From IMG/VR virus record IMGVR_UViG_3300049216_000249, positions 1 through 64,000 of that record: 64,000 nucleotides of DNA. One strand, written 5' to 3'. Each line of letters opens with the position of its first letter. Position 1 is the first letter of the stretch. Of this stretch, positions 13,295 to 46,853 are shown piece after piece. The stretch is from a virus. A model generated the notes under the pieces. The model was not told the DNA's origin. It did not search any database and saw only the letters and a list, made by a program, of their open reading frames with translations. A program made the translations under genes and the position numbers.

Positions 13295-13644
13295 ACGTCA
13301 CCGGCCCGTCGCCCCAAACGGTCACCGTCCTGCGGGTGGTTCGGTCCCTGATCTCCGGGCCAGGCCGGTGGATACAAGGCGAAGTGGCGCGGGATGCCCA
13401 TGGCAACGCCGTGCTGGCGGGTGCCCCCACGGCAACCTGCTTTTGCATTGCCGGCGCCATTATCCGCGGTCACAGCGACCCATTTGAGCAGGACTGCGCC
13501 GCCTGGGTATTGGATCGGATCGCCAGCGCGCGAGGATACGAGATGCTAGTGACTCTTAACGATGATCCCAACACCACACAGGCGGACATCGTGGCCTGGA
13601 TCGACGAAGGCATCGCAAGCCTGCAGACGGAAGCCACAGCATGA
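13291..13644 (+). CDS. DUF6197-like protein
   Basis: Encodes 117 residues. The order of features fits the DUF6197 group found in actinobacteria and phages: GPGRWIQGEVARDAHGNAV, AGAPTATCFCIAGAIIRG, then VTLNDDPNTTQADIVAWIDE. The function of that group is unknown. Overlaps both neighbours by four bases, forming a MarR / DUF6197 / methylase-helicase cassette. Confidence 0.75.
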   Translation: MNVTGPSPQTVTVLRVVRSLISGPGRWIQGEVARDAHGNAVLAGAPTATCFCIAGAIIRGHSDPFEQDCAAWVLDRIASARGYEMLVTLNDDPNTTQADIVAWIDEGIASLQTEATA

Positions 13645-16600
13645 ACGATCTGTTTCAGCCCACCACGCCCGCCGTCGTCTCACTGTTCAGCGACATGGCG
13701 GACGCACAGAATTACAGATTCACGGGGACACGTGGGCTGGCCCCGACGTGGAAGGAGCGGGCGGAGGATAACGTTCGAGCCATCAAGTTGATGCAATCGA
13801 TCGAGGAACAAGGGCGCCATGCCACCCCGATTGAGCAGCGCTTGCTTGCCAAGTTCATGGGATTCGGCGCCAGCGAACTGGCCAACGGGATATTCCCGAT
13901 CAAGGGCAAGCCATGCCGCCCCGGGTGGGAGAAGATCGTATCAGATCTGAGCGGCTCCACCTCCTACCTCGAATGGGCCAGCCTATCCCGCGCCACCCAA
14001 TATGCCCACTTCACCCCGGAATTCCTGGTTCAGGCTATGTGGCTGGCTGTCCACCGACTGGGCTTCCGCGGCGGGGCTGTACTCGAGCCTGGTTGCGGCA
14101 CCGGGCTATTCTTGTCCTTGATGCCCGACGAAATGGTAAGCACCTCGGTCCTGACGGGGGTTGAGTCCGATACCGTCACAGCCCGGATTGCCCGGCTGCT
14201 GCATCCCCTTGCGGATATCCGTGAATGCGATTTCACGGATCCGGAGCTTCGGCTGCCGAAGCAATGCCTGGCCATCGGCAATCCGCCATTTTCGGACAGG
14301 ATCGTCCGCGGCGCCGGGTTGAAAAGCACGGGCATGTCGTTGCACGAATTTTTCGTCTGGCGATCGATTAAAGCCCTCCGGCCAGGCGGACTGGCTGCGT
14401 TCGTCGTTTCGCGGTACTTGATGGATAAGGCCACCAGTGTGGCGCGGCACTCCATCGAGGACATGGCCGACCTCCTGGGCGCCATTCGGCTACCGGCCGG
14501 GGCGCTATTGGCCGACGCGGGCACTTCCGTGGTGGTCGACCTCCTGTTCCTACGCCGGCGTGCCGAGGCGGACGCGATCGGCGGGGAGTCATGGAACACC
14601 CTGCGCGAGGTGGAGGCCGACGGCGCGGCCGATCCGGTGCAAATCAACCGCTATTTTGCGACCCATCCCGACATGGTGCTGGGTCGCCATGCTGTGCGCA
14701 GCGGCCAATATGGCCCGACCTACACCGTCCTGCCGCGCGAGGGTGTGGACATTGGCGATGCCCTGTCGGCAGCGATCTTCTGCATCGGACAAAATGACGC
14801 GGTTGAACCCGAAATCACGGCAACATCTCGCCAGCCAGACGTCCAGCAGAATCCTGACGTCGAGGCGACCGCTGCGCTACCGCCGCAGCGTCCGGTTAGC
14901 GTGCGGATCGGCAAGGCCGCCGACGGCGCAACCATAAAGGAAGGCAGCTACTTCATTAACCCCGAAGACGACGGACTCTACCAGGTCGTGGACGGCGTCG
15001 CGAAGGCGGTCAAGATCAAGGCCGGGCGCAGCGGGGAGGGCATGTTCGTCAGCCACGCCCGCACGATCCGGGGGCTTATCCCTATCCGCGACGCGATTCG
15101 AGAGGTGCTACGGGCCCAGGAGGCCGATCGACCATGGGAAGCCGCCCAGGCCCGGCTGTCGGCCGCGTACGGCGCCTTCGTGCGCCGGAACGGGCCCGTC
15201 AATAAGATTCTGGTCAGCCACGCCGAGCCGAACGAGGACGGGGATGTAATCGAGCGGTCCCGTCGACCGAACTTGGCCCCGATGATGGACGATCCCGATG
15301 CTTTCCTTGTGGCGGCGATCGAGGAATACGACCCGACAACCGGACTGGCCACACGCGGCCCAATCTTCAGCGAGCGCGTCATTTCGCCGCCGCCGGAACG
15401 GGTCATTAATTCGGCGGCTGACGCGCTGGCCGTGACGCTGAACGAAGTGGGGTTTGTCGACCTGGACCGGGTCGCGGAAGTGTTGGGGACCGAGCGCGGC
15501 GCGGTCATCGAGGCCCTGGGCCCGGCCATCTATCACAACCCAGCCGACGACGCCTGGCAGACAGACGACGAATACCTGTCCGGCTCGGTGCGAACCAAGC
15601 TAGCTCAGGCAGTCGCCATGGCGGCGGCCGACCCGGGCTACGAACGCAACGTCGAGGCGCTGAAGGCCGTCCAGCCGGTCGATCTTAAGCCCAGCGAGAT
15701 CACAGCCCGGTTGGGCGCGCCATGGATACCGGCGGCAGACGTGATGCAGTACGTGCTCGACGTGATCGGGGTCGCGGTTCCGATCGACCATGTTCCCGAA
15801 CTGGCAACCTGGTCGGTTGACCTGTCGCGTTTCAAAGGCCTGGCCAGCGCCACCTCCGAATGGGGCACCGCCCGGCGGGATGCCGGATTACTACTGGAAG
15901 ACGCGCTCAATAGCCGCGTTCCCCAGGTCTACGACTATGAGTGGTCGGGAGGTGTGAAGGTGGCCACCCTGAACGCGGCTGCCACCGAAGCGGCCAAGGA
16001 AAAGCTGACCAAGATGCGGGAAGCGTTCCTTGGGTGGGTCTGGACGGACACAGATCGGGCCGAACGGCTGGCGCGCATTTACAATGACCGGTTCAATAAC
16101 TTGGTGCCGCGGCAGTTCACCGGGGCGCACCTGATGCTGCCCGGCGCCAGCACCGCCGTAAAATTGCGGCCGCACCAACTCCGAGTGATCTGGCGGGGCA
16201 TCAGTTCCGGCAGCACCTACATTGCACACGCCGTCGGCGCAGGAAAAACCTTCGCAATCGCCGCTTTACTGATGGAACAACGGCGGCTCGGACTGGTCGA
16301 TAAGCCCATGCTGGTGGTTCCCAGCCATTGCCTGGCGCAGTTCAGCCGGGAATTCGTGCAACTTTACCCGAATGCCCAAATCCTGGTGGCCGACGAGACG
16401 AACTTCTCGAAAGCCAAACGGCATCGGTTCGTCGCCCGGGCGGCCGTGGGCAAGTGGGACGCGATCATCATCACCCACAGTGCCTTCAAACTGATCTCGG
16501 TGCCGGCCGATTTCGAACGGGACATGATCTTCGCCCAAATCCAGAACTATGAGGCCATGGAGAACCGGGTCGGGGTTGACGACCGGGTGTCCCGCAAGCG

Positions 16601-18665
16601 GCTTGAGCGGCTGAAGGAAGGCCTGCTGGCCCGCCTGGGGGCGTTACGCGGGTCAAAGGACGACATGCTGACCATCGCGGAAATCGGGGTTGACCAAATC
16701 GTGGTCGACGAGGCGCAGGAATTCCGCAAGCTGAGCTTCGCCACCAATATGACCAATCTGCGGGGGATTGATCCAACCGGCAGTCAGCGGGCCTGGGATT
16801 TGTTCGTCAATACCCGCTTTGTCGAGCAAAAGCAGCCGCGCCGACCGCTGATCCTGGCCAGTGGCACGCCCATCACCAACACAATGGGGGAAATGTTCAG
16901 CCTGCAGCGCTTCATGCAGCCCGCGGTGCTGGAAGAACGGGGTCTGAGCGAATTCGATAGCTGGGCCCAAACCTTCGGCGATACCCGGACCGAAATGGAG
17001 CTTCAGCCGTCGGGCCTCTACAAGCCGGTCACCCGGTTCAGCGAGTTCGTCAACGTGCCGGAATTGGTCGCCATGTTCCGTTTGGTCGCCGACGTCGTGC
17101 AGATGCCTGATTTACGTGAATACGTGAATCTGCCTCGTGTCAGCACCGGCCAGCGCCAACTGATCACCGCGCCTGGGACGCCAGATTTCAAGGCTTATCA
17201 GAAGGTTCTGGCCGCCCGGATCAAGGCCATCGAAGCCCGCGGCGGGGTTCCAAAGAAGGGCGATGATATCCTGCTTTCCGTGATCACGGATGGTCGGCAT
17301 GCCGCGATCGACCTTCGCTTGGTTGGGCATAATGAAGACGAGCCTGGCAACAAGCTGAACCTGCTGATCGAAAACGTGCACCGGATTTGGCTGGAAACCA
17401 AAGAGCGGGCGTATTTGCAGCCCAATGGGGTGCCGTACGACCGGACCGGCGCGGCGCAGATGATCTTCAGCGACCTGGGGACGTTGGCGGTGGAGGACAA
17501 GCGGGGATTCAGCGCCTACCGGTGGATCAAAGAACGTCTGGTAGCCTTGGGGGTGCCTGGGACCGAGATCGCCTTCATGCAGCAGCATAAGACCAGCGCC
17601 GCCAAGCAAAAGCTCTTCGACGCGGTGAACGCCGGGCTGGTCCGGTTCCTGATCGGGTCCAGCGAGACGATGGGAACGGGAGTGAACGTGCAGACCAGGC
17701 TCAAGGCCCTGCACCACCTCGATGTGCCATGGCTACCCTCGCAGATCGGTCAGCGTGAAGGGCGCATCGAGCGGCAGGGCAACCAGAACGAGGAAATCGG
17801 CCTTTATGCCTATGCGACATTGGGCAGCCTGGACGCCAGCATGTGGCAGACCAACGAGCGCAAGGCCCGCTTTATCGCGGCGGTGCTGGCCGGGGACCGG
17901 TCCATTCGGCGGTTAGAAGATCTGGAAAGCAGCCAATCCAGCCAGTTCGCGATGGCCAAGGCGATTGCCAGCGGTGACGCCCGGCTGATGCACAAGGCGG
18001 GGCTGGAAGCGGACATCGCGCGGCTGCAGCGCCAGGCGGACGCCCACTTCGACGACCAGCACAACGTCAAATGGACCATCAAGCAGGCAGAGGAAACGAT
18101 TGCAAAATCCGAGCGGCTTCTCCCGCTGATCGCTGCCGACCTTGCCCAGTTGCAGGACACCCGGGGGGATCTGTTCCGCATGGAGGTAAAGGGCGAGGTC
18201 TATCAGGAGCGCAAGGCGGCCGGCGCGGCGCTGCTTCGCCACATGCGGATGATGGATGTGAACCGCCCCATCGGATCGACCGTCATCGGCACTTTTGCCG
18301 GGTTTGATCTATCGGCCGAGGGGCACATCCACCACATCGGCTGGGGCGACGATCGGACCGAGCGCTACGAGGTAGACCTGATCATTGGGCGGAATGTAGG
18401 CGACAAGGAAATCCGCCACGAACCCAACATGTCAGGGCTTGGCCTGATCGCGCGCATGGAGCGGATGTTCGACTGGATTGAGGAAGAAGCACCGTACCAC
18501 CAGCAGGAACTTGCCAAGGCCAAGGCCAAACTGGCCGACTACCTGCCGCGGCTTGGCGGCCCGTTTCCGTATCAGGCGGACCTGGCTGCCAAGGTGGAAG
18601 AGTTGCGGCTGCTGGACCGTGATCTTGCGGCCACCGCGGCGGTTGAAGACGAGGTTTCCGCTTGA
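13641..18665 (+). CDS. DarB-like N6-adenine methyltransferase / SF2 helicase fusion (N12-class methylase)
   Basis: Encodes 1674 residues. An N-terminal methyltransferase has the SAM motif VLEPGCGTGLF (residues ~147-157) and catalytic NPPF (~214-217). A helicase follows with Walker A AVGAGKT (~863-869), motif II VDEAQEF (~1020) and later helicase motifs TMGTGVNVQTRL and QREGRIERQGN (~1375). This is the architecture of P1 DarB-type antirestriction proteins and of N12-class methylases on conjugative plasmids. In P1, DarB is packaged into virions and shields DNA from type I restriction. Whether that holds here is inference. The gene closes the rightward operon, next to the partition locus. Confidence 0.85.
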   Translation: MNDLFQPTTPAVVSLFSDMADAQNYRFTGTRGLAPTWKERAEDNVRAIKLMQSIEEQGRHATPIEQRLLAKFMGFGASELANGIFPIKGKPCRPGWEKIVSDLSGSTSYLEWASLSRATQYAHFTPEFLVQAMWLAVHRLGFRGGAVLEPGCGTGLFLSLMPDEMVSTSVLTGVESDTVTARIARLLHPLADIRECDFTDPELRLPKQCLAIGNPPFSDRIVRGAGLKSTGMSLHEFFVWRSIKALRPGGLAAFVVSRYLMDKATSVARHSIEDMADLLGAIRLPAGALLADAGTSVVVDLLFLRRRAEADAIGGESWNTLREVEADGAADPVQINRYFATHPDMVLGRHAVRSGQYGPTYTVLPREGVDIGDALSAAIFCIGQNDAVEPEITATSRQPDVQQNPDVEATAALPPQRPVSVRIGKAADGATIKEGSYFINPEDDGLYQVVDGVAKAVKIKAGRSGEGMFVSHARTIRGLIPIRDAIREVLRAQEADRPWEAAQARLSAAYGAFVRRNGPVNKILVSHAEPNEDGDVIERSRRPNLAPMMDDPDAFLVAAIEEYDPTTGLATRGPIFSERVISPPPERVINSAADALAVTLNEVGFVDLDRVAEVLGTERGAVIEALGPAIYHNPADDAWQTDDEYLSGSVRTKLAQAVAMAAADPGYERNVEALKAVQPVDLKPSEITARLGAPWIPAADVMQYVLDVIGVAVPIDHVPELATWSVDLSRFKGLASATSEWGTARRDAGLLLEDALNSRVPQVYDYEWSGGVKVATLNAAATEAAKEKLTKMREAFLGWVWTDTDRAERLARIYNDRFNNLVPRQFTGAHLMLPGASTAVKLRPHQLRVIWRGISSGSTYIAHAVGAGKTFAIAALLMEQRRLGLVDKPMLVVPSHCLAQFSREFVQLYPNAQILVADETNFSKAKRHRFVARAAVGKWDAIIITHSAFKLISVPADFERDMIFAQIQNYEAMENRVGVDDRVSRKRLERLKEGLLARLGALRGSKDDMLTIAEIGVDQIVVDEAQEFRKLSFATNMTNLRGIDPTGSQRAWDLFVNTRFVEQKQPRRPLILASGTPITNTMGEMFSLQRFMQPAVLEERGLSEFDSWAQTFGDTRTEMELQPSGLYKPVTRFSEFVNVPELVAMFRLVADVVQMPDLREYVNLPRVSTGQRQLITAPGTPDFKAYQKVLAARIKAIEARGGVPKKGDDILLSVITDGRHAAIDLRLVGHNEDEPGNKLNLLIENVHRIWLETKERAYLQPNGVPYDRTGAAQMIFSDLGTLAVEDKRGFSAYRWIKERLVALGVPGTEIAFMQQHKTSAAKQKLFDAVNAGLVRFLIGSSETMGTGVNVQTRLKALHHLDVPWLPSQIGQREGRIERQGNQNEEIGLYAYATLGSLDASMWQTNERKARFIAAVLAGDRSIRRLEDLESSQSSQFAMAKAIASGDARLMHKAGLEADIARLQRQADAHFDDQHNVKWTIKQAEETIAKSERLLPLIAADLAQLQDTRGDLFRMEVKGEVYQERKAAGAALLRHMRMMDVNRPIGSTVIGTFAGFDLSAEGHIHHIGWGDDRTERYEVDLIIGRNVGDKEIRHEPNMSGLGLIARMERMFDWIEEEAPYHQQELAKAKAKLADYLPRLGGPFPYQADLAAKVEELRLLDRDLAATAAVEDEVSA

Positions 18666-18788: not shown

Positions 18789-19052
18789 TCACCCGTGCCG
18801 CTTGATCCAGCCTTCGATCATTTTTGTCACTTCGCCGATCATGTTCGTCCGGTGGATTGCGCACGCAGCCTTGAATTTCGCGTGCGTGTCCGGCGCCAGG
18901 TCGATCGTTAGCCGGACCGGCTTCGGTGGCCTGGGCGGCTTGATTGGATCGACCTCGGGGGCAGGGACCGGCTCCGGGGTGCTACCGCCCACCCAGGCGT
19001 CCAGCGCCGGGTCAGCGGGGCGCGCAGGATGCCGTATCGTCACCTTTTTCAT
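18789..19052 (-). CDS. Ribbon-helix-helix partition protein (ParB/ParG-type partner of ParA)
   Basis: Encodes 87 residues. A Pro-rich flexible N-terminus precedes a ribbon-helix-helix (VRLTIDLAPDTHAKFKAACA, then HRTNMIGEVTKMIEGWIKRH). Small RHH centromere-binding proteins that follow a ParA gene are typical of type Ib plasmid partition. Its ATG overlaps the ParA stop (ATGA). It probably binds the par region upstream of parA or the adjacent origin region and represses the operon. Confidence 0.8.
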   Translation of the reverse strand: MKKVTIRHPARPADPALDAWVGGSTPEPVPAPEVDPIKPPRPPKPVRLTIDLAPDTHAKFKAACAIHRTNMIGEVTKMIEGWIKRHG

Positions 19053-19678
19053 GACCCCATCTTCCTGACCTCAATTGCGATTGCGCGGATCTCCGTGGCC
19101 GCCGGCCCTTTGGGTTGCAGGCCGATCACGGTCGTACCGCCAGACAGTGCCTCGGCGTAGACGATTCGCTGGGTTGTGCTGGCCTTCAAGACTGGGATGT
19201 CGAATTCGGCGAGGGCGGTTTCGATGTCCCGGGCAAGTGCCGTCCGGCCGATTTTCCGTGAAATCACGAACACGGCTTTCTGTGTTCCCTTGAAGTCGCG
19301 GACCTCTCGGACAAGTTTGACCGTCTCGCGCGTGGCCCACAGGTCGGCACCGGACGGCTGGACGGGGATCAGCACCAGGTCGGCGGCGCCAATCGCCGAT
19401 CTGGCAACTTCGTAGGCCCGCGGCGCACCATCGACGATGATGTCGTCGTAATCGGCCGCCAGACCCGGCAAGTCCCGGTGCAGCACGGGTTTGGACATCC
19501 CAATAACCTGGAACCCCGGCACGCCCTGGCAGGCGGCCGCCCAGTCCTGCGCGGTCTGCTGTGGGTCAGCGTCCGCCAGCAAAACGCGCCTGCCCTTCTC
19601 CGACCAGGCCGCGGCCAGGTTGAGGGCAATCGTCGTTTTTCCGGCCCCGCCCTTTTGGTTGATGACGGCCACGATCAT
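19049..19678 (-). CDS. parA: ParA-family partition ATPase
   Basis: Encodes 209 residues with the deviant Walker A NQKGGAGKTTIALNLAAAWS (residues 7-26), DADPQQTAQDWA (motif A'), and IIVDGAPR (Walker B, ~80). Its length fits the short type Ib ParA without an N-terminal HTH. GGAAGGAC precedes the ATG. With the overlapping RHH gene it forms a partition operon reading away from the iteron origin. It segregates the unintegrated genome between daughter cells. Confidence 0.9.
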   Translation of the reverse strand: MIVAVINQKGGAGKTTIALNLAAAWSEKGRRVLLADADPQQTAQDWAAACQGVPGFQVIGMSKPVLHRDLPGLAADYDDIIVDGAPRAYEVARSAIGAADLVLIPVQPSGADLWATRETVKLVREVRDFKGTQKAVFVISRKIGRTALARDIETALAEFDIPVLKASTTQRIVYAEALSGGTTVIGLQPKGPAATEIRAIAIEVRKMGS

Positions 19679-19947: not shown

Positions 19948-20199
19948 GTGGGCGATCCTGCGTGGATTACACCATATCTAGTGGGAATGCCTGCGTGGAT
20001 ACCGAAAATGAAGTGGGCGACACTGCGCAGACTCGGTGGGATCGTCTGCGTGGATAGATCCGACTGCCATAAAGGTGGGACTTCCTGCGTGGGTAACCCA
20101 TTCGCGCGCCCGGTCAGGTGGGTGATCCTGCACAAAATGGACCGTTGGCGGCTATTTTCGCCGGGCTGGTGCGTGTCGGGTGGGCGATCCTGCGCGCCG
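19948..20199 (+). repeat. Seven direct iterons, consensus GTGGGCGATCCTGCGTGGAT
   Basis: Copies start at 19948, 19981, 20013, 20036, 20075, 20118 and 20180 (20 bp each). The core GTGGG(N)5-6CTGCG is kept in all but the sixth, which ends CTGCAC. Spacings are 33, 32, 23, 39, 43 and 62 bases, mostly not whole turns. They lie directly upstream of the RepA gene, as expected for initiator binding sites. Confidence 0.9.
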
Positions 20200-20246
20200 A
20201 ATCGCTCTGGCGGCGTTATGCACGGACACGGAAGGGGCCGACCGCC

Positions 20247-21230
20247 ATGGATATCGCCAAGCAGCTTGAACTGTCCGGGCTGGAAGAGACGAAGCGTCTT
20301 GCGCTTGCGCATACTGACACACCCTCCGGCCGTCGGCGGATCGTCCGTCAGATCGAAACGGCGCACGATATCATGTCGGCTCTACCGTCCGATGATGATC
20401 TGTCGTTCCTGCACTCCGGCCTGTGTCAAACCTGCTTGCCGCACAGCCGCCCGGCCGAGAACCACACCATCTGGCGCCGAACCAGTGGCCGGTTCACCCT
20501 ATCAATTTCCCCTGGATCGGTGGCGGCCGGCGCCGACGGCGGGGACGGGTACGTCGGGGTGCCATACGGCAGCAAGGCCCGGCTGATCCTGATCCATCTG
20601 CAGACCGAGGGCATGAAGAGCCGGACCGTTCACCTGGGCCCGTCGTTGTCGGCCTTCATGCGGTCGTTGGGCCTGGCGGTGACGGGCGGCGCCAAGGGCA
20701 CGATCGCCAGCACCAAGGAGCAGGTGTTGCGGATCGCCCGGTGTTCCTTCTCCCTGCAATGGTCGGACACCGAAAACGACGGCATTCGGACGCGCTTCGA
20801 AGATCACAAGATCGTCGATGGGCTGGATCTCTGGCAGGCGGGCAGGGGGGATCGGTGGGACGGGACGGTTCAGCTTTCCGAGCGCTTCCACGCCGAGCTT
20901 CAGGAGCATTGCGTGCCGCTGGACAAGCGCGCTATCGCCGAACTGAGCAGCAATTCGCTGGGCCTCGACCTTTACGCCCTGCTTGCGTATCGGCTGCCGC
21001 GGCTGCGGGAAAGCCTGCACCTGCGCTGGCGCATGCTGCAGGGCCAAGTGGGGTCGGAAGAGACGCAGATGAAGGAGTTGGCCCGCCGGGTCCGCAATGT
21101 CATGCCGGACGTCATGGCGGTCTATCCGCACGCGAAGGTGGAGGTGACGTCTAGCGGCCTGACGCTGCGAAAGAGCGAGCCTGCGGTACCATCCAGGGCC
21201 GTGCGCGGCTACCGGGTGATCGAGAGCTAG
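20247..21230 (+). CDS. repA: RepA-type plasmid replication initiator (RepA_C family)
   Basis: Encodes 327 residues from the ATG at 20247; an upstream start at 20118 would translate the last iterons. Recognisable parts of the RepA_C initiator family are GVPYGSKARLILIHLQTEGM, SLSAFMRSLGLAVTGGAKGT and RIARCSFSLQW, then SSNSLGLDLYALLAYRLPRL near the C-terminus. These proteins bind iterons and start theta replication of alpha- and gammaproteobacterial plasmids. Its position next to iterons and parA makes a self-replicating prophage state very likely. Confidence 0.9.
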   Translation: MDIAKQLELSGLEETKRLALAHTDTPSGRRRIVRQIETAHDIMSALPSDDDLSFLHSGLCQTCLPHSRPAENHTIWRRTSGRFTLSISPGSVAAGADGGDGYVGVPYGSKARLILIHLQTEGMKSRTVHLGPSLSAFMRSLGLAVTGGAKGTIASTKEQVLRIARCSFSLQWSDTENDGIRTRFEDHKIVDGLDLWQAGRGDRWDGTVQLSERFHAELQEHCVPLDKRAIAELSSNSLGLDLYALLAYRLPRLRESLHLRWRMLQGQVGSEETQMKELARRVRNVMPDVMAVYPHAKVEVTSSGLTLRKSEPAVPSRAVRGYRVIES

Positions 21231-22545: not shown

Positions 22546-23049
22546 TTATGCGGCGGTCGCGACCGCCGGAGGTGTCGCGACCGGCGAAGCGGCGACGGCG
22601 CCCTTGACGGCAGACACCAGGGCCATCGCATCGTTTACGGCCTGAAGCGGCGCCACGCTGGCCGAGGCCGCCTGCGCCGTTGCATCCAGCGTGTTCTTTA
22701 CCGCCGAACCCACCGCGTTCTTGGCGATGCGGGCCACGTCATCGGGCGAGGCTTTTAGCGAGGCGATGGTGGCGTCGTGGGTCGCCGTCAGGGATGCCTT
22801 CAGGGATGCCTCCACATCCGCGATGACGGTCGGATCGGTGATCGACTTGCCCTGGATCATCACGTCCTTCAGCAGCGTCGGAGCCGCATTCATGGCTGCG
22901 CCAACCAGTCGGTTATTCTGAATCGCCGCGGTGTCGATGCCCTTAGCCTGTAGCCATTTCACCGCCATGGCGGCGGCGCCGGACGTGACGGCGAGTTCCA
23001 TGACGAGTTGTGCGCTTTTGGCGATGGTGTCGAATGTTTCGGGACTCAT
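22546..23049 (-). CDS. Late protein next to endolysin, unknown
   Basis: Encodes 167 residues, Ala-rich and mostly helical (AQLVMELAVTSGAAAMAVKWLQ at the N-terminus is amphipathic rather than a true membrane span). The C-terminal 50 residues are nearly all Ala/Val. The ATG overlaps the endolysin stop and has a GGAGA site. Its position suggests a lysis accessory or holin-like role, but no transmembrane evidence supports calling it a holin. Confidence 0.55.
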   Translation of the reverse strand: MSPETFDTIAKSAQLVMELAVTSGAAAMAVKWLQAKGIDTAAIQNNRLVGAAMNAAPTLLKDVMIQGKSITDPTVIADVEASLKASLTATHDATIASLKASPDDVARIAKNAVGSAVKNTLDATAQAASASVAPLQAVNDAMALVSAVKGAVAASPVATPPAVATAA

Positions 23050-23786
23050 TGTGCGTCTCCTTCAGGAACGGTGGGATTAAAGGCGTCCATCAGCTCGTCG
23101 GCCGTTGGTTCTGGTGTGGACTGCGCCGGGCTGACGACGGGGGTTGGTTTGCTGAGGGGCTTGGGAGCGGCAACGGCCACCGCTGCCCCGGCATGCAGCG
23201 CGACGGCTGGCGTATCGGGTTGCCATCCCCACGCCTTGGCCTCGGCAAATGCTCGCTGATACAGCGGCATCAGGTCGGCCGTGCCGAGCCGCCACACGGC
23301 GTCATAGGCCGCTTGGCTCTCCGCCGCCTCGCCGGCAAACAAGCGACGCTCATACTCCCGCCGCCGCAGCAGGCCCAGTTGAGGCGCACCGCCGGCGACA
23401 GCCCAGCCGTTGAGTTGGTCGGCCGCCAGATCGATGCGCCCGGCATTGGCCATTTTCGCGAGCGTTGAGCCGGACAGCGCCCCGGCGCCGAGGTTGTGCG
23501 TGAACGAAATCAAGACCGATGCCTGCACATCGTCGATAGCCCACGACACGGCCTTGGCAACATCCACCACCCATTGCTCGCACTGTTCGGCCAGCAATTC
23601 GTCAGCCTGGGCGTCGGTGATCTTGTCGCCTGCCTGGACTCGGCGGCCGGATAACATCAGGGTCGAGCCTATGCCTATAGTCCAAATTCCAACACTGTCT
23701 TTGTAGGCAGAGAGCCGGACGCCCTCGCATCGGCGGATCAGCGACACGGCGGTCGCGGGCACAGTCTTTCGGTCCCAGGTTGTCAT
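23046..23786 (-). CDS. Endolysin, glycoside hydrolase family 24 (T4-lysozyme-like)
   Basis: Encodes 246 residues. The catalytic triad order of GH24 is visible: Glu-21 in RRCEGVRLSAYKD, Asp-30, and Thr-36 in GIWTIGIGST. The ~150-residue lysozyme domain is followed by a C-terminal extension of ~95 residues with a Pro/Ala linker. There is no signal peptide, so export needs a holin. GAAGGG lies upstream of the ATG. It cleaves peptidoglycan glycan strands at the end of the lytic cycle. Confidence 0.9.
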   Translation of the reverse strand: MTTWDRKTVPATAVSLIRRCEGVRLSAYKDSVGIWTIGIGSTLMLSGRRVQAGDKITDAQADELLAEQCEQWVVDVAKAVSWAIDDVQASVLISFTHNLGAGALSGSTLAKMANAGRIDLAADQLNGWAVAGGAPQLGLLRRREYERRLFAGEAAESQAAYDAVWRLGTADLMPLYQRAFAEAKAWGWQPDTPAVALHAGAAVAVAAPKPLSKPTPVVSPAQSTPEPTADELMDAFNPTVPEGDAQ

Positions 23787-23905: not shown

Positions 23906-24364
23906 TTACTGAGCCTCAATCGTCACAGGCCGGTCCGGCGACTGCCGCGGCGGTTGGATCTCCGTCAGCCACCCGCAATGCTCCATCGTAATGGTGCGCT
24001 CATACCACTGGCCTGGGGGAAACCCCTTTGGGATAGTCAGGGTCAACATGTATTGGAAATGTCCCTTGCCGGGGACTGGGGTAAGCGGCGGGTTGTCGAT
24101 CGCCCGGAATTCCTTCACGGGACGGCCACGGTAATTGACGTTGCGCCAGAGATAGCGGGACACCTGTATCGGGCAACTCTTGCTTCGCTCTCCGGAAACC
24201 ACGAACGAAATCGTGTCATCGCCAGGGCTGACAATGGCGTCCGTCTCGTCCACAGACTCAATCACGACAGATGGCCCTGAATTGACCCAGACCATCGTTC
24301 CAACGCCGGCAAACAGTCCAACGGTGGCACTTGCTAGGGCTACCGCCCAAATGCGTATTTTCAT
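23906..24364 (-). CDS. Membrane-anchored periplasmic protein of the lysis region
   Basis: Encodes 152 residues from the ATG at 24364, which overlaps the stop of the previous gene. One N-terminal span (IWAVALASATVGLFAGVGTM) precedes a ~125-residue beta-rich exported domain with two Cys (KSCPIQ, EHCGWL) that could form a disulphide. The location invites a spanin-like role, but no coiled coil is seen. Superinfection exclusion is another possibility. Confidence 0.6.
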   Translation of the reverse strand: MKIRIWAVALASATVGLFAGVGTMVWVNSGPSVVIESVDETDAIVSPGDDTISFVVSGERSKSCPIQVSRYLWRNVNYRGRPVKEFRAIDNPPLTPVPGKGHFQYMLTLTIPKGFPPGQWYERTITMEHCGWLTEIQPPRQSPDRPVTIEAQ

Positions 24365-24771: not shown

Positions 24772-26205
24772 TCACGCCCCGCCTTGCGCGGCCACCAGCA
24801 CCTTGCGCGTGGACATCCGGCAGAATTTCACGACACCGCTGACACCGCCCGATGCTGTCGTATCGCCGATGACGGAGAGGCGAAGCTGATAGCTGGCGGT
24901 TCCCGCCGGCGTGCGCGTCGTTGTCTGCGGTGTCTTCGTCAGACCGCTAAAGGCCGCCGGAAGAGGATACCCGGCAACATTATAGGCGGAGAGCGAGTAG
25001 TGGTCGAAAACCGTGGTCCCGTCTGAATCCTTCACGTGAATGCCAACACCGCGAATGTTCGATCCGCCTGTCACCGTCACGTTGACCATGCTCTCGATCA
25101 CATCGCCCGGGTTGATGTTTGACCCATTGGTGATGCTTTGGAGCAGGAATATTTCGCCGCTCGTGTTGGTCCCGGTGACGCCGGTAAGAGTCAGCACTGC
25201 GCACTGCCCGGCCACCGCATCCGCGATCAAAGACCACACAGCCGTGCCGCCCGTCGTCGTGCCGAGCGAGTTAGTCGCCGTCCAGCTTGTCGGCTGCACG
25301 CCGCTCATCACGCCGTTGGTGGTGGCCGCCACCGATCCCGTAAGCAGGCCATTGGCAGCCAGATTTCCGGTTGGGTGCGCGGTTGTGTAGGTATCAAGCG
25401 GATCGGCAAACGATGGGTCTACCGCCGGAAATATCTGGTTGATGATGGCCGCAACCGCCGATCCCCACAGATATGCCCCAGCCGGGCTGTTATGCAGTTT
25501 GTCCGCAATTGTGTTGACCGTGGCGGCATAGCCCGTCGTCGTGTCGATATACGACTTGCGCGCATCCGCCCAATAGACACCAGGAGTTTGCTTGGCAAAG
25601 GCGGCATACTGCGCGTTGATCTCGGCCGCCTGCTGCTGGTATGCCACCTCAGATGGCGTGCTTCCGGTGTTCCACGCCCCAGGGCCGCGCGGGAACACCG
25701 GGAGCAGGATCACCTTGGCACCAACCGCCTGAAACAGCGCGACCGCCGCCTGCATATTGGCCACGGTCTGCGCCACGGTGATAGCGGATAACGGGTCGTT
25801 TTCGCCCATGTCCAGCACGACCGCGCCATATCGTTTAGCCGCCAGCGCCGCCGGTATCCGGGCTAGGATTTGCGTGCTCGTCTGCCCGACGATGCCGCGG
25901 TTGTCCGTGATCTCCGAAACGATCCGGCCGCCGGTCAAAAACTGCACCCACGACATCAAGCCGTTCGAAGCGAATGCCAGAGATTGCGTGCCAGGAGTGG
26001 CAATGGCTACAGCATCACCGCAGCTAGAAACGCTGCCGAACGTGGCGAAGCAGATTAGGCTGTCCCCCATCGCCAACACCCGATTGTTGGGGCCGGAAAT
26101 GAGCGGGGTTCCGATGGCAGAGACGGGCACGCTGGGAACCGGGGGCGCCCCAGCGGCAACTGCCTGCCCGCACAGCAGCAGCCAAATTGCGAGAGATGCG
26201 CGCAT
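24772..26205 (-). CDS. Secreted SGNH/GDSL hydrolase, tail-associated
   Basis: Encodes 477 residues from the ATG at 26205. A Sec signal peptide (MRASLAIWLLLCGQAVAAGA) is followed by an SGNH hydrolase: Ser-49 in AMGDSL, Asn-136 in GENDP, Asp-234/His-237 in DKLHNSP. The last ~210 residues are a beta-rich carbohydrate-binding-like domain. SGNH esterases deacetylate polysaccharides, so this may trim host capsule or envelope sugar. It sits just after tail-fibre genes in the late unit. A signal peptide on a tail-module protein is unusual (see findings). Confidence 0.85.
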   Translation of the reverse strand: MRASLAIWLLLCGQAVAAGAPPVPSVPVSAIGTPLISGPNNRVLAMGDSLICFATFGSVSSCGDAVAIATPGTQSLAFASNGLMSWVQFLTGGRIVSEITDNRGIVGQTSTQILARIPAALAAKRYGAVVLDMGENDPLSAITVAQTVANMQAAVALFQAVGAKVILLPVFPRGPGAWNTGSTPSEVAYQQQAAEINAQYAAFAKQTPGVYWADARKSYIDTTTGYAATVNTIADKLHNSPAGAYLWGSAVAAIINQIFPAVDPSFADPLDTYTTAHPTGNLAANGLLTGSVAATTNGVMSGVQPTSWTATNSLGTTTGGTAVWSLIADAVAGQCAVLTLTGVTGTNTSGEIFLLQSITNGSNINPGDVIESMVNVTVTGGSNIRGVGIHVKDSDGTTVFDHYSLSAYNVAGYPLPAAFSGLTKTPQTTTRTPAGTASYQLRLSVIGDTTASGGVSGVVKFCRMSTRKVLVAAQGGA

Positions 26206-26207
26206 GG

Positions 26208-26699
26208 TCAGTTCCCTTCGAACACAAGCAACGTCCCGGCAGCCACGCATATCCCGTCCCACTCGTCCGTGCTGGTGCTGGCCGCGTCGTAGATCGGCGT
26301 CGAACCGCCCTGGTGCCCCGCAGCTGATGCGGCCTCCAGTGGGTAGCCCACCAGCCCGGTGACAGTCCCCGGCGCGACGACAGTGTTGCTGGTGGCGCTG
26401 TTCTGGCCGGGGGTTGTGGGCACGGTGCCACCGGTTCCGGCTGCCGAGAACGAGCTTGCAGTGCAGAACGATGTGTTGATGTTGAGGATCTGGATGCTTT
26501 TGCGGGTGGGGTTTAACAGCGACAGCAGCACGCTCTGTCCGGCGGGCATGGCAATGGCTTTAGGTGGGACGGATTGGGGGGTGCGGACGCCGATGGGGTT
26601 TGGCACCGGGGTATTCCCGATGATGCTGGGCGCCTGAGCGTGGGCCGACCCGATCAACGCGGCAAATAATATCGCAAATAGGACGCTTTTGAATCGCAT
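26208..26699 (-). CDS. Secreted tail-module protein, unknown
   Basis: Encodes 163 residues from the ATG at 26699; the longer frame to 26759 overlaps the upstream gene. A signal peptide (FKSVLFAILFAALIGSAHA) precedes a beta-rich mature part with AGQSVLLSLLNPTRKSIQIL and a Gly/Ser/Thr-rich middle. Second of three consecutive genes with export signals between the tail fibres and the lysis group. Function unknown; a receptor-binding or cell-surface accessory is plausible. Confidence 0.65.
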   Translation of the reverse strand: MRFKSVLFAILFAALIGSAHAQAPSIIGNTPVPNPIGVRTPQSVPPKAIAMPAGQSVLLSLLNPTRKSIQILNINTSFCTASSFSAAGTGGTVPTTPGQNSATSNTVVAPGTVTGLVGYPLEAASAAGHQGGSTPIYDAASTSTDEWDGICVAAGTLLVFEGN

Positions 26700-26713
26700 G
26701 GTGCTCGCGTCCT

Positions 26714-27715
26714 TTATCGGGCCGTGGTGACTATGGTCGTCGCCCCAGATGCCACGCACCGGACGACGTTCGTTGGGGTGTCCACCGTGCCGATAGCGGG
26801 CCAGATGAGATAATAACCCGGAGCCGCCGTGTATCCCGCCGCGTTGATAACCGGCAGAGTGCCATCACCGCGGCACGTGATGGTTTGATCCGGCGACATG
26901 ATCGAGATCGCGACATAGTTGCCCGGCGGGTAAACCCCGACCGGGGCATTCGTTATTGACGTGGTGAGTGGGGATATGGCCGCGCGGTTGACCAGGGTTG
27001 ACGCCGAGACCTTGGTGTTGGCGTCCAGCGTCGCTGGGCCGGACGGCTGGCCAAGAGATGACGATTGGATGGCGCCGACGATCCGACTATCGTTGCCGGC
27101 CGCGATCGTCCCGCTGGCTGTGCCTACCGACAATCGAACAGTCGCCAGCGTCCCCGACGTGATGTTGCTGGCATTGGTCGGATCGACGTAGCCGGCCAGA
27201 GCGGAAATCGCAGGCAACCGAACCGCGGCGACCGTGCCGCTGGTCAGGTTGGAAGCGTTTCGGGCTGTGGTGGCTTCAGTGTTGATCGCGCCATAGACCG
27301 CGCCCGCGTCCGGCACCGTCCCGGTCGTTGTGCCCACGTTCAGAACCGCCGCACCGCCGAGCCCGAGGTTCACTCGCGCCGTCGCTGTGCTGATCACGTC
27401 GGAGAGGTTGTTGGACGCCACCAGCGCGCCCAGCGTGCCAGCCGCGGGGAGGTTGGCCAAGGGGACCTTGGATGTGGAGTCTAGGGGGGCCAAGCCATTC
27501 GCCGCCCCCTTTTGCGCGGCCAACGCAGCCAGCGCGTCGCCACCGGCAACCGGGCACGGAGAGCCGTTCGCCACGGTCCCCTTGACGGTGCCAATGATGA
27601 CACGGCCGGACGGGATTACCGTACCGGATGGGCATGTCGCGGTCTGAGCCTTGGCAAAGCCGCCCATCGAAAGCCCAAGCGCCATCGCTGCCATAAGCAG
27701 GTTATTCACGCGCAT
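26714..27715 (-). CDS. Tail-fibre-like protein with signal peptide
   Basis: Encodes 333 residues. The N-terminus MRVNNLLMAAMALGLSMGGF followed by AKAQ looks like a cleavable signal peptide. The body is a phage fibre type: LAPLDSTSKVPLANLPA, repeated NASNLTSGTVAAVRLPA / NASNITSGTLATVRLSV units and a compact C-terminal head. Fibre shafts of this kind are common in virions, but normally are not exported. It is 28 bases downstream of a structural gene in the late unit. Confidence 0.75.
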   Translation of the reverse strand: MRVNNLLMAAMALGLSMGGFAKAQTATCPSGTVIPSGRVIIGTVKGTVANGSPCPVAGGDALAALAAQKGAANGLAPLDSTSKVPLANLPAAGTLGALVASNNLSDVISTATARVNLGLGGAAVLNVGTTTGTVPDAGAVYGAINTEATTARNASNLTSGTVAAVRLPAISALAGYVDPTNASNITSGTLATVRLSVGTASGTIAAGNDSRIVGAIQSSSLGQPSGPATLDANTKVSASTLVNRAAISPLTTSITNAPVGVYPPGNYVAISIMSPDQTITCRGDGTLPVINAAGYTAAPGYYLIWPAIGTVDTPTNVVRCVASGATTIVTTAR

Positions 27716-27743: not shown

Positions 27744-28463
27744 CTAGGCCGCGGTTGGCGTAAAGGTGCCGGACCAAGTGATGGGCGTGCCCGCCAAGCC
27801 GGTTCCGGTCAGGATGATACCCAACGGCCCAACCGTCGGAACCAGGTTGCATCCAACCATCGTGGGGTCCTGGGCATTGATCGTGGCCAGCGGATCTCCG
27901 ACGAATGCCGGTGCACCGCTGCCAAGGCCCTGGACTGTCGCTGACACGTTCCAGACGATCGGTGCACCCGTAGCGATGTTGCGCGCCATCACCGTGCCCT
28001 GAAGCTGTAGGGCGGTGCTGTTGAGAATCATGCTCCCGAAAGTGCCCAGCACGATCGGCGTGGCGTCAGGCGTGACAATGCCGGAAAACTGGACTGCCAT
28101 TTGGACCTCTCCAAGCTCCGGCGCGGCGGTTATGACCGGGATGGTGATGACCTGGCGGATTGTCTCGTTTGCCGACGTGTTGATAATCAGGGCCAACGTC
28201 CCGGATATGCCGACTGTGCCGCCCGAAAGGCCGACTGAAACGGTTGAGCCAAAGATGCCGGACTGGTTGACCGTAATGCCTTCACTGCGCACCAGCAGGC
28301 CGGTGATGGCGGCCGATCCGATCACCTGGCTGAAATCGACCGTGCAGAGGACGGTGTCCTCCGGGTCTTTCGCGGGCCACGATGGGGGAACAAGGATATC
28401 CGTGTTTCCGTGAATAATGACCGGCCGCGACGGCAAGACAATCAGGCGGGAGATCGGGGCCAT
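27744..28463 (-). CDS. Beta-rich virion protein, unknown
   Basis: Encodes 239 residues of almost continuous beta-strand pattern (SVGLSGGTVGISGTLALIIN, then VQMAVQFSGIVTPDA). It has two Cys and no membrane segment or signal. Ends in TGTGLAGTPITWSGTFTPTAA. Probably an Ig-like or jelly-roll accessory of the tail tip; no family recognised. Confidence 0.6.
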   Translation of the reverse strand: MAPISRLIVLPSRPVIIHGNTDILVPPSWPAKDPEDTVLCTVDFSQVIGSAAITGLLVRSEGITVNQSGIFGSTVSVGLSGGTVGISGTLALIINTSANETIRQVITIPVITAAPELGEVQMAVQFSGIVTPDATPIVLGTFGSMILNSTALQLQGTVMARNIATGAPIVWNVSATVQGLGSGAPAFVGDPLATINAQDPTMVGCNLVPTVGPLGIILTGTGLAGTPITWSGTFTPTAA

Positions 28464-28703: not shown

Positions 28704-29783
28704 CTAATATCCCATTGCTTTCCAATAGACATTGTATCCGGCGCCCCCGCCCGTATCCGTGCATCGCGCCTGAAACCCGTTGACGTCCACCAATTGAGAA
28801 CCCAGATTGTGGGCGTCAGGCGCCCCAACGCCCCACCATACTTCGACGCTAACAGCGGTGTGCGGGAATGAAGTCACGTAGCTGTACCCGTGAGTTGCAC
28901 CGTCCGCAGGGATCGTAAACGTCCCGTATTGGATTATAAACGAGTAGCCGGTGTTGGACCCCGCTGGAAAAGCCTGTATGCCATTGCCTCCAATCGAGTT
29001 AAAGAACTGATTAATACTTACCGCTTGGTTTCCCGTTGTTCCGTTTGCTAAGTTCAAAGTGCCAAGTGAGCTAGACGTTGAATTTAGTATGACGACAGGG
29101 TTGCCAGCTAGGCCTAATTGGCCGCCTGTGCGCTGAACAACCAGATCCGTTATTACGTCGCTAACAGCCGTTATCTGGTTATTAACAGTAAGCGAGCCGC
29201 TAAGTGCGCCTCCTGTTAAATTCAAATAGTTTGAACCCACCCATGTTTCGGTGGCGACGTTAAACGGGGCATTAGCATCAATGGCGACGGTGAGCTTACC
29301 GGTTGTGCCATTCCATCCCTCATAGATCTTGTTGGTTCCTTGGCCCGAAGCTCCGCCCTGCTGGACCGGCGTGAAGCCAGATGAGGCGGCAGTGAGTCGA
29401 CCATCTAATCCAACGGTAAGCGAGGTGTTAGTATAGGATCCGGAGGTGACACCAGTGTTGGTGAGGCCAAGCGCAGCGGCGCTTCCTGCAGTCCACAGAT
29501 TTGCTGCGATATCCCCGGCCTGCCATGTTTCTGCTGTCGTTCCCTCTTGCGCGCGGACGATCGTGCATACATCGCCGGACCGCGCCGTCACCTGGACAAT
29601 TTCATTGGTCAGTTGCGTCGCCGCATCAACGAACGTCAGCAGGAAGTACTGGCCTGCGGCCGGGTTGGGAAATTCGGCCCCTGTTCCTGCTGCAAGAGTG
29701 CACGATGTCGCAGATGCCGTGATAGCACCAGCAAGTGTTGTCGACGCGTTGTTCGCGAAAAGGATCGGAGAGGAAGAGGACAT
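28704..29783 (-). CDS. Tail fibre protein
   Basis: Encodes 359 residues. The N-terminal ~110 residues (NNASTTLAGAITASATSCTL, EIVQVTARSGDVCTIVRAQE) match the virion-attachment domain of many phage fibres. The middle shaft is rich in Gly, Asn, Ser and Thr. The C-terminal ~90 residues (YGTFTIPADGATHGYSYVTS, FPHTAVSVEVW) resemble gp53-type fibre tips that bind receptors. Follows the baseplate genes. Its A+T content in the shaft is visibly higher than in neighbours, suggesting horizontal exchange. Confidence 0.85.
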   Translation of the reverse strand: MSSSSPILFANNASTTLAGAITASATSCTLAAGTGAEFPNPAAGQYFLLTFVDAATQLTNEIVQVTARSGDVCTIVRAQEGTTAETWQAGDIAANLWTAGSAAALGLTNTGVTSGSYTNTSLTVGLDGRLTAASSGFTPVQQGGASGQGTNKIYEGWNGTTGKLTVAIDANAPFNVATETWVGSNYLNLTGGALSGSLTVNNQITAVSDVITDLVVQRTGGQLGLAGNPVVILNSTSSSLGTLNLANGTTGNQAVSINQFFNSIGGNGIQAFPAGSNTGYSFIIQYGTFTIPADGATHGYSYVTSFPHTAVSVEVWWGVGAPDAHNLGSQLVDVNGFQARCTDTGGGAGYNVYWKAMGY

Positions 29784-29812: not shown

Positions 29813-30463
29813 TCAGGAGGTCAGGTTCACCACGTAGGTGTATTGGAATGGTGTCTCGACCGCGCCAGCAGCAATAGCGGCCTTTAGGATGGCCGCTGCT
29901 GCCACAGTGCTGGTCGTTGTCTTGATGGTGATGGTGTAGACACCAGCGACTACAACGATGCTGACATCTGACGTATCGGCCACGCTGACGTCAGTGCCAT
30001 TGGTACCCAGCAGGAACCGCATGATCCGGCGCTTCAGCCAACGGACACAGAACTGCTTCCCGTCGCCCAGGTAAAGGTGCCATGTCATCACCCTCTTATA
30101 GTAATCGTCGTTCAGCGTGACATAGGAAGTCGGCGCGATTGTCTTTCTGGCATTGAAGGGAAGCGTGTTCAGCATCCACGTGTTGAACGGTCCGATAGTG
30201 CGGGCTGCTGATAGCGGGATGCTTGGCCGGGCAATATTGTAAACACCCTGACCAACCCAATCCAGCAGCAGACCCGCGATCATCACCCCGGTATAGACCG
30301 GCAAATTGATAGCATTGAACCAGTCGATATATTGCTGCGTCATGATGTTGAACGCGGCAAAAAATGCCTGGATATCGTCGTCGTCGGAATACTGAAAGTA
30401 CGGATAGGCTGGTATCGTTTTCTGCGGCGATAGAGGGGCTGCCAGGGGAAGCGTCACGGGCAT
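29813..30463 (-). CDS. Baseplate-peripheral tail protein (DUF2612-like)
   Basis: Encodes 216 residues. The N-terminal half (DDDIQAFFAAFNIMTQQYID, GLLLDWVGQGVYNIARPSIP) resembles the DUF2612/tail-protein-I-type proteins that link the baseplate wedge to the fibre. Encoded right after baseplate J, which supports this. The C-terminus is a Thr/Val-rich beta segment. Confidence 0.65.
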   Translation of the reverse strand: MPVTLPLAAPLSPQKTIPAYPYFQYSDDDDIQAFFAAFNIMTQQYIDWFNAINLPVYTGVMIAGLLLDWVGQGVYNIARPSIPLSAARTIGPFNTWMLNTLPFNARKTIAPTSYVTLNDDYYKRVMTWHLYLGDGKQFCVRWLKRRIMRFLLGTNGTDVSVADTSDVSIVVVAGVYTITIKTTTSTVAAAAILKAAIAAGAVETPFQYTYVVNLTS

Positions 30464-30469
30464 ATCGGG

Positions 30470-31891
30470 TTACCCCTGACTGACGATGGCGGCTGTGGGT
30501 GCCGCGGTGAAATAGCCCTCCGGATCTCCGGCGATGATCCCTGTGCCGGTTGATGGAGCCACGCCGATGCCATCGATCGAGACGGTGAACACCATCCGGG
30601 TCAGCAACTGTGTGGGAAGGATCGAAGCCACGGCCATCTGGAAGGTCGCCTGCAACTCAAACAGGTTCATCGGCTGACCGGCCGACAAGCTGTTCACGTA
30701 ATTCACCAGGGCCTGCGCGCCCAGCACATTCACAGCGGCGCCAGACACAAAGTTCACCGCCGAGGTGTTCCAGGTCAGCGATATGACGACTACCTGGGCA
30801 GGCGGTCGCACAAAGGGGATCACATATGTGTCCGGCGGCTCGCTGATGGTGACGCTGACGTTGCGCAGGTTCGGGGTCACAATGCCACCGCTGATATAGG
30901 CGCCATATCCGGTCGTATTGACCCCGATGCTGAAAGTGGTGGGGGTCAATACGGTCACGGTCAGCGGCGTGTTGTTCACGGCCGTCATGCCTACCACGCT
31001 GGCTATATTGATCACCTGTCCAGTGGCGAATTCGTGCTTGAGCGTCGTGGTCACAACGCCAGGGCTGGCCTGGGTGATCCCTTCGACCGCCAGCACCGAT
31101 CCTTTTAGCGTCGAAATATCGCCGACAGACGAATAGATGGCATTTGCAATTTCATAAATATCGCCGCCACCGACGATGACTTCCCAGCCGCCGCCCGTGA
31201 GTTGTCGGATGCTGATCAGCCGCGGCTGTACCCCGGATATGGCAAGAAGTTGCTTGCGCAGGTAGGACGGCATCGAAAGAGCAGGGGCCTTCTGCGCCCC
31301 CAGCACCTGAGCCCGATAATCCGTCTCAGTTTGCGCTCCGGTGCTCGCAATTCCCGCCAGCGGGTTCGTCACGGCCAAGGAGATACCAGTCGGCACCGAG
31401 GTCACAATCTGCGTCACTGTGCCAGCGGGGACAGGCCAAGAGCCCGCCACCGTGGCCACGGTGGACAGGGTAGCGCTGACCCCGCTGCTGGCGATAATGC
31501 CGCCGTCCTGTACCGTGTATTGATAGGTGCCGTCGCCAACCGTGAACCCAGGCGCGATCACGAAGCCGGGCGGCCCGGTGAACTGGACGTCGACTTCGGT
31601 GTTGGTGTCCAAGCCAATCGGGATGCCAAGCGTCCCGCCAAGCATCTGCAGGATGTAAGCATTCGCGCCATTGGGCGTGATCGAGTTGACCAAATCCACC
31701 CTGGCCTGGTCACATAGTACCACCGCAGCCGTACCGGTGCTGGCCAGATCCTCGATCAGCGACGCGGGCAGGTTGGCTGTGAGCCCCGGCGACATGCCGA
31801 CTGCAAGGGCAACCAACTGCGCGCGGAGGTCCGCCGGCGCCTGGGGCTGAAGGCCTGCGGCCGTCATGACCGTCGGCAGCGACCCGCTCAT
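30470..31891 (-). CDS. Baseplate wedge protein J
   Basis: Encodes 473 residues. GpJ features: VALAVGMSPGLTANLPASLI, SIEDLASTGTAAVVLCDQAR-like N-terminal helices, and the core with GAQTETDYRAQVLGAQKAPA and SMPSYLRKQLLAISGVQPRL. Residues ~268-335 contain an inserted beta-domain (GVVTTTLKHEFATGQVINIA ... TTFSIGV) that is related to those in the sheath and in the capsid-region protein at 44172. J forms the wedges of contractile-tail baseplates. Overlaps the upstream gene by four bases. Confidence 0.85.
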   Translation of the reverse strand: MSGSLPTVMTAAGLQPQAPADLRAQLVALAVGMSPGLTANLPASLIEDLASTGTAAVVLCDQARVDLVNSITPNGANAYILQMLGGTLGIPIGLDTNTEVDVQFTGPPGFVIAPGFTVGDGTYQYTVQDGGIIASSGVSATLSTVATVAGSWPVPAGTVTQIVTSVPTGISLAVTNPLAGIASTGAQTETDYRAQVLGAQKAPALSMPSYLRKQLLAISGVQPRLISIRQLTGGGWEVIVGGGDIYEIANAIYSSVGDISTLKGSVLAVEGITQASPGVVTTTLKHEFATGQVINIASVVGMTAVNNTPLTVTVLTPTTFSIGVNTTGYGAYISGGIVTPNLRNVSVTISEPPDTYVIPFVRPPAQVVVISLTWNTSAVNFVSGAAVNVLGAQALVNYVNSLSAGQPMNLFELQATFQMAVASILPTQLLTRMVFTVSIDGIGVAPSTGTGIIAGDPEGYFTAAPTAAIVSQG

Positions 31892-32247
31892 GCGTAGTAG
31901 GACACATCCAGGGTCGCGGTGGCGGCCTGCTGGATGAATTCAATGGCGGCCAGCGGCCCGGAATAGGTAGTGGTTCCACCCATCGCGATCGGCATGCCAA
32001 CGGTGGCCGTCGGTGCCACGCCATCATCGCGATAGCGCACGGCCGCGCCCTCGACAGTAATCACGGCATAGGTTGCCCCAGCCGGGGGCGTCAGGTGGGT
32101 CGCTGCGGTCAACACGGTGATCTGCTGATAGCCAAGCGGGCTCGGGACATAAGGGCTTCCAGGCGCGCCCTGACCGCCGTTTGGATTGGGTGCGATCCAG
32201 ACCGGGATTGCCGAGGCCGGGTTGCTTTGGCTGTTTGGGTAGGCCAT
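31888..32247 (-). CDS. Small baseplate/tail protein, unknown
   Basis: Encodes 119 residues, beta-rich, with a Pro/Gly/Asn-rich N-terminal third and the segment YAVITVEGAAVRYRDDGVAP. It is placed between the W/gp25-like gene and baseplate J and overlaps J by four bases. A jelly-roll or plug role in the baseplate is plausible; no family named. Confidence 0.6.
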   Translation of the reverse strand: MAYPNSQSNPASAIPVWIAPNPNGGQGAPGSPYVPSPLGYQQITVLTAATHLTPPAGATYAVITVEGAAVRYRDDGVAPTATVGMPIAMGGTTTYSGPLAAIEFIQQAATATLDVSYYA

Positions 32248-46709: not shown

Positions 46710-46853
46710 CTCAGGCGCCTCCAATATCTGCGGCGGCGAAGATGGTTTTCGCGCACCTTGGCTTTCAGCCGCACGAAGCACCATCTAAGCGGGGCATCTG
46801 CGGCTGGGGCAAATTGCCACTGGCCGCGGCACGATGGATCTGAACCGATCGGC

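Follow-up and report, generated by a model that had tools for sequence, protein, structure and literature searches.

It is assumed that tailed phages fold and assemble their tail fibres within the reducing cytoplasm. Why, then, would three consecutive genes that lie directly after tail-fibre genes each begin with a Sec signal peptide? We addressed this question in a 64,000-nt stretch of viral DNA (the window), taken from a 65.8-kb IMG/VR record of a soil-type bacterial virus. The three genes (the trio), all on the minus strand, follow one another head to tail and are flanked by the gene for a gp77-like fibre-tail adaptor and by the lysis cassette. The initial annotation had proposed that their products are exported and either remodel the surface of the lysogen itself or act on exopolysaccharide. 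The features considered are the following, from upstream to downstream:

31888-32247, minus strand: small protein; in related phages, its relatives often immediately precede signal-peptide genes
30470-31891, minus strand: baseplate J protein (phrog_6, 5.9e-21), 43-47% identical to those of Chronis, PdC23, and others; the query for relatives
29813-30463, minus strand: DUF2612-type tail protein (phrog_8212, 1.2e-66), homologous to the PdC23 DUF2612 protein
28704-29783, minus strand: conventional fibre with a conserved baseplate-anchor N-terminus (phrog_8469, 3.6e-18); no signal peptide
27744-28463, minus strand: gp77-like fibre-tail adaptor (PF23148, 1.6e-8, above cut-off), 28 nt upstream of the trio; no signal peptide
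26714-27715, minus strand: fibre-like protein, 333 aa, with Sec signal peptide and PHROG matches
27647-27715, minus strand: signal peptide of the fibre-like protein, probable cleavage AKA/QT, from sequence
26208-26699, minus strand: small secreted protein, 163 aa, with signal peptide and without family match
26637-26699, minus strand: signal peptide of the small protein, AHA/QA, top score in the window
24772-26205, minus strand: SGNH/GDSL hydrolase with a C-terminal domain, 477 aa, with signal peptide (PF13472, phrog_6102)
26146-26205, minus strand: signal peptide of the SGNH hydrolase, from Sec score and sequence
23906-24364, minus strand: the following gene of the late operon; protein predicted to be membrane-anchored, with an extracytoplasmic domain and a borderline Sec score of 3.6
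23046-23786, minus strand: endolysin (phage lysozyme; PF00959, 9.7e-33) of the lysis cassette that follows the trio

All window genes were scored for signal peptides with a home-made heuristic Sec/SPI score rather than SignalP. The trio was the only consecutive run of high-scoring, ribosome binding site (RBS)-preceded genes in the 64 kb. The three signal peptides of the initial annotation were thus confirmed, as were the gene ends given there; two of the starts were corrected. The fibre-like protein starts at ATG 27715. For the small protein, ATG 26699, which is preceded by an RBS-like AAGGA and lies 14 nt behind the fibre stop, is likelier than GTG 26759, and for the hydrolase ATG 26205, 2 nt behind the preceding stop, was chosen over GTG 26262. 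The resulting N-termini (slash, cleavage) are MRVNNLLMAAMALGLSMGGFAKA/QTATC for the fibre-like protein, MRFKSVLFAILFAALIGSAHA/QAPS for the small protein, and MRASLAIWLLLCGQAVAAGA/PPV for the hydrolase. Each carries the features of a Sec/SPI signal (a positive n-region, a hydrophobic core of 9 or more residues, and small residues at -3/-1), begins at an RBS-preceded ATG, and ends in an AxA-type site. In related phages, the score fired for 2/890 and 0/347 genes lying upstream of baseplate J (and for about 1% of genes if internal starts are allowed, with false hits in terminase), a background low enough that three adjacent signal-peptide genes are not a matter of chance.

We then considered what the three proteins may be. 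The fibre label of the initial annotation was borne out for the 26714-27715 product, the only member of the trio with PHROG tail-family sequence (phrog_1446 minor tail, 1.1e-7; phrog_7389 tail fibre, 2.8e-4). A AAQKGAANGLAPLD..KVP..LP stretch in this protein is shared with tail spikes that carry no signal peptide, and a direct scan for relatives returned just a 30-residue motif in three contigs. The small protein had no Pfam or PHROG family match and no relative among phages or viral contigs. Single-sequence AlphaFold models of these two proteins were poor (pLDDT of 31 and 33, respectively). The hydrolase label was likewise sound: PF13472 was matched at 5.6e-12 (47 bits versus a cut-off of 32.9) and the phrog_6102 lipase at 1.2e-44 over nearly the full length. 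SGNH blocks I, III, and V are present with their Ser, Asn, and Asp/His, and alignment with phage homologues shows no variation at the catalytic residues S49, N136, D235, and H238. These homologues, from tail or lysis regions, had no signal peptide when tested, even with the frame extended upstream, and a direct scan of viral contigs for relatives of the window hydrolase found nothing. No close homologue of the trio exists with which signal-peptide conservation within the lineage could be compared. The trio has no N-terminal baseplate or tail anchor domain; signal peptides stand there instead, and the anchor sits in the 28704-29783 fibre, whose homologues stand behind baseplate J in most relatives. 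We detected no outer-membrane anchor, barrel, lipobox, or Pfam outer-membrane protein match in the trio, nor any signal for outer-membrane passage.

The trio is embedded in a tight tail-to-lysis operon, with intergenic gaps of 28 nt (adaptor to fibre-like gene), 14 nt (to the small-protein gene), and 2 nt (to the hydrolase gene). A scan for promoters of sigma-70-type consensus and for terminators gave nothing above shuffled sequence (4 versus 3.4 and 6 versus 8.2), and the trio thus appears to lack a promoter or terminator of its own. These genes are more plausibly expressed along with the lysis genes than in a quiescent lysogen. The 23906-24364 protein, encoded between the trio and the endolysin gene, has two cysteines and resembles, by eye, a protein of a related locus (L016:12448). 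A tblastn search with the window's PF23148 protein found no relative in 50,697 phage records.

To place the locus among its relatives, we drew two locus samples from viral-contig scans with baseplate-J alignments; the baseplate J protein groups the window phage with myophages of the Chronis/PdC23/Rac-SA53 type. Signal-peptide genes, scored with the same heuristic, were enriched downstream of baseplate J (23/498 and 12/225, or 35/723 in all) compared to upstream of it (2/1237; Fisher P = 1e-13); a few of those counted are lysis or lipoprotein genes, and the near-duplicates L010/L011, L037/L069, and L053/L054 inflate the numbers slightly. About a dozen relatives of the window phage carry signal-peptide proteins of fibre or esterase type, with paired cysteines, among their tail genes. 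By labels read from their sequences, the downstream hits include fibre-like proteins (L029, L069, L202, and L209), beta-helix-like proteins (L028, L054, L016, and L225), small beta-type proteins (L028:15405 and L202:16053), and a second SGNH-like protein (L201:13944, from its GDSF/GSVND/DSTHP-like motifs). A further tail-region protein, L202:16526-17371, begins with MNRRDLLKAMATAPIIGAPNIARA, a twin-arginine-like export signal. Scans against Pfam and PHROGs matched almost none of the relatives' signal-peptide proteins that were scanned, and proteins from different phages are mostly without sequence relationship to one another. Since unrelated proteins occupy the same genomic place, it is the export trait and its placement that recur, not the protein. 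For 22/24 of the listed relative genes, the start fell between -28 and +8 nt relative to the preceding stop, a spacing tight enough to indicate that the operon gene truly begins with the signal.

A quick tree built from the baseplate J proteins of the first sample put every signal-peptide locus, along with the window, into a single set of 29 rows, within which they were scattered. No signal-peptide fibres were found in the enterobacterial members checked (Chronis/PdC23/Rac-SA53 type) or in prophages from genome samples, and the signal-peptide fibres of two relatives had no tblastn match among named phages. The small protein encoded at 31888-32247 was considered as a marker of exported fibres and rejected. 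Its family has hundreds of viral relatives and no Pfam family, and it directly precedes signal-peptide genes in L028 and L069; among 80 relatives, few have signal-peptide genes.

One family of relatives has a split fibre. In L225, L226, L228, and L246, an anchor gene of about 210 aa is followed directly by a signal-peptide gene, with a 4-nt overlap in L225, L228, and L246 and a 2-nt gap in L226. The exported products are 40 to 50% identical to that of L246, the weakest signal being that of L228. L024 instead has the homologous domain joined to the anchor as a single 575-aa protein that lacks a signal peptide. The exported forms share four invariant cysteines (C213, C219, C235, and C271 of L246), of which L024 keeps one. 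In a set of 86 anchors with a median length of 384 aa, those of this family rank among the shortest; L221, L229, and L233 likewise have short anchors, but there the next gene has no signal peptide.

Cysteine content was also consistent with export. The number of cysteines was even in 26/28 mature exported proteins, including the fibre-like protein (four; residues 28, 54, 281, and 320), the small protein (two; residues 79 and 151), and the hydrolase (four; residues 52, 62, 335, and 462, after cleavage removes an extra cysteine within the signal peptide). Cysteine-bearing nonexported genes of the same loci were even in 18/43 cases (18 even versus 25 odd; Fisher P = 8e-6), and anchored fibres (n = 52) were even in 26 and odd in 24 (P = 1.4e-4 versus the exported set); both P values are approximate, since some of the 28 proteins are homologous and the control set includes some spurious open reading frames. 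An even number is as expected of proteins that would form disulphides in a compartment permitting them. For the hydrolase, the nonexported SGNH protein of Cygsa01, a Pseudomonas phage, carries cysteines at the four equivalent positions; the cysteines of this family are therefore not specific to the exported form.

We also asked whether the trait might follow from the lifestyle of the phage. Two further genes of the window bear on this:

20118-21230, plus strand: RepA_C replication protein (PF04796, 3.6e-24)
19049-19678, minus strand: ParA-type ATPase (AAA_31, 2.6e-22)

Given RepA and ParA, the window is a probable phage-plasmid. The nearest relatives of its RepA, about 52% identical, are on plasmids of Roseomonas, Pararoseomonas, and Kozakia, which suggests a host in the Acetobacteraceae. 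Among 18 records, RepA was found in the window only; with 0/17 related records carrying it, the export trait is independent of the phage-plasmid lifestyle, which we rejected as its cause. Elsewhere, the window encodes a giant DarB-like antirestriction/methyltransferase-helicase protein of 1,674 aa (13641-18665, plus strand; phrog_10089) and a 581-aa head-region protein (45039-46784, minus strand; phrog_6216, 1e-151) whose nudix-like and head-maturation-protease matches are weak.

Taken together, the signal peptides, their recurrence in relatives, and cysteine parity support the export proposed in the initial annotation, and we hold with high confidence that the trio is truly exported. The proteins are very probably expressed late. 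We propose that the trio comprises accessory fibre- or spike-type proteins made late from the tail-to-lysis operon, in which signal peptides stand in for the N-terminal baseplate-anchor domain of ordinary fibres. The host Sec system would export them; once in the periplasm, they would be freed of the signal peptide and would fold, with disulphides forming. The downstream lysis cassette would then open the cell, and the proteins would leave with the progeny, most likely not attached to the phage particle. Once released, the fibre-like protein may bind, and the SGNH esterase may deacylate, cell-surface or extracellular polysaccharide. As a whole, we give this account an even chance. Polysaccharide is, by a small margin of probability, the expected target, in keeping with the earlier suggestion of action on exopolysaccharide, which is plausible for an SGNH esterase. 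Action as free proteins rather than bound to the virion is slightly favoured, because an apparently complete anchored fibre (28704-29783) is kept and because mixing at lysis would dilute the parts. Release at lysis needs no signal peptide, however, so that a free enzyme would explain the selection of the signal only via disulphide folding or action before lysis.

The main competitor to free release is that the exported proteins are true virion parts, a distal fibre or spike that folds in the periplasm and docks onto an anchor or adaptor when the envelope breaks. The split fibres of L225, L226, L228, and L246, set against the fused form in L024, favour such docking, as do the short anchors of that family, the position of the window fibre directly after a gp77-like adaptor, and the high sequence turnover, as seen in receptor-binding proteins. 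The short anchors of L221, L229, and L233 nevertheless occur without export, the mature N-termini share no common docking domain, most signal-peptide phages keep an anchored fibre as the window does, and dilution at lysis disfavours the encounter. We therefore regard docking as unlikely, albeit the strongest of the alternatives. Slightly more doubtful is its extension to a clade of myophages that would finish their receptor-binding fibres outside the cytoplasm. In this version, a distal fibre or esterase that has been split from its anchor and given a Sec or Tat signal would fold oxidatively in the periplasm and be joined to the virion when the envelope ruptures or later, so that assembly spans two compartments.

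The reading first offered for this locus, lysogenic conversion, holds that the proteins coat or deacylate the lysogen surface and block other phages in the manner of Lom or Cor. Signal peptides and SGNH chemistry would suit this role, phage proteins exported near tail genes are known (lambda Lom), and the late region of L225 encodes an outer membrane protein (OMP)-like signal-peptide protein (L225:18722-19519; 265 aa, beginning MRFLKTSIILAAAAAFATSAFAADMPTKAPP, mature start ADMPTKAPP) that is a possible conversion gene. No outer-membrane anchor, barrel, or lipobox was detected in the trio itself, and its late, operon-coupled placement without a promoter of its own, as judged from a sigma-70-type scan, argues against conversion; remodelling of the lysogen's own surface was thus not supported, and we consider it improbable. 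Least probable of all, to the point of being hard to credit, is that the hydrophobic N-termini are incidental or serve as membrane anchors, leaving the proteins in the cytoplasm as ordinary virion fibres. The fibre motif and the SGNH homologues do belong to ordinary tail- or lysis-region proteins without signal peptides, but three consecutive cases with AxA cleavage sites and positive n-regions, a recurrence that stays downstream of baseplate J and within a single baseplate-J clade, and cysteine parity all speak against this.

If this phage group has repeatedly swapped the anchor of fibre, spike, and esterase proteins for an export signal, with paired cysteines, that would imply either a second assembly compartment or a secreted class of receptor-binding proteins and depolymerases released with the burst. 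Signal-peptide genes in tail modules should accordingly not be annotated automatically as morons. Such loci may also yield disulphide-stabilised binding proteins and esterases.

The literature searched held no precedent for signal-peptide tail fibres, although coverage was incomplete and this absence is weak evidence. The exported conversion proteins Lom of lambda and Cor of phi80 and N15 adjoin tail genes and are outer-membrane or surface-masking proteins. The trio resembles them as phage-encoded exported proteins beside tail genes; unlike them, it is fibre- and esterase-like and lies tightly inside a late operon. The PF23148 domain of gp77, the fibre-tail adaptor of podophage GP4, is also encoded immediately upstream of the trio, and what connects it to the exported fibre is position only. 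SGNH/GDSL esterase tailspikes are described for phages Moo19 and B2 (PMC11654681), and these, together with that of Escherichia phage G7C, have the esterase activity predicted for the window hydrolase and, like it, are encoded by late-region genes. The phrog_6102-like SGNH proteins of Pseudomonas phages VCM, Cygsa01, and nickie share its catalytic blocks and late-region position. The phage SGNH relatives tested lack a signal peptide, whereas the window protein has one and has no virion-anchor N-terminus. The anchored fibres of the Chronis/PdC23/Rac-SA53 myophages agree with the window in gene order from sheath to DUF2612, in fibre-shaft motifs, and in genomic place; the window fibre differs in carrying a signal peptide where their baseplate-anchor domain stands.
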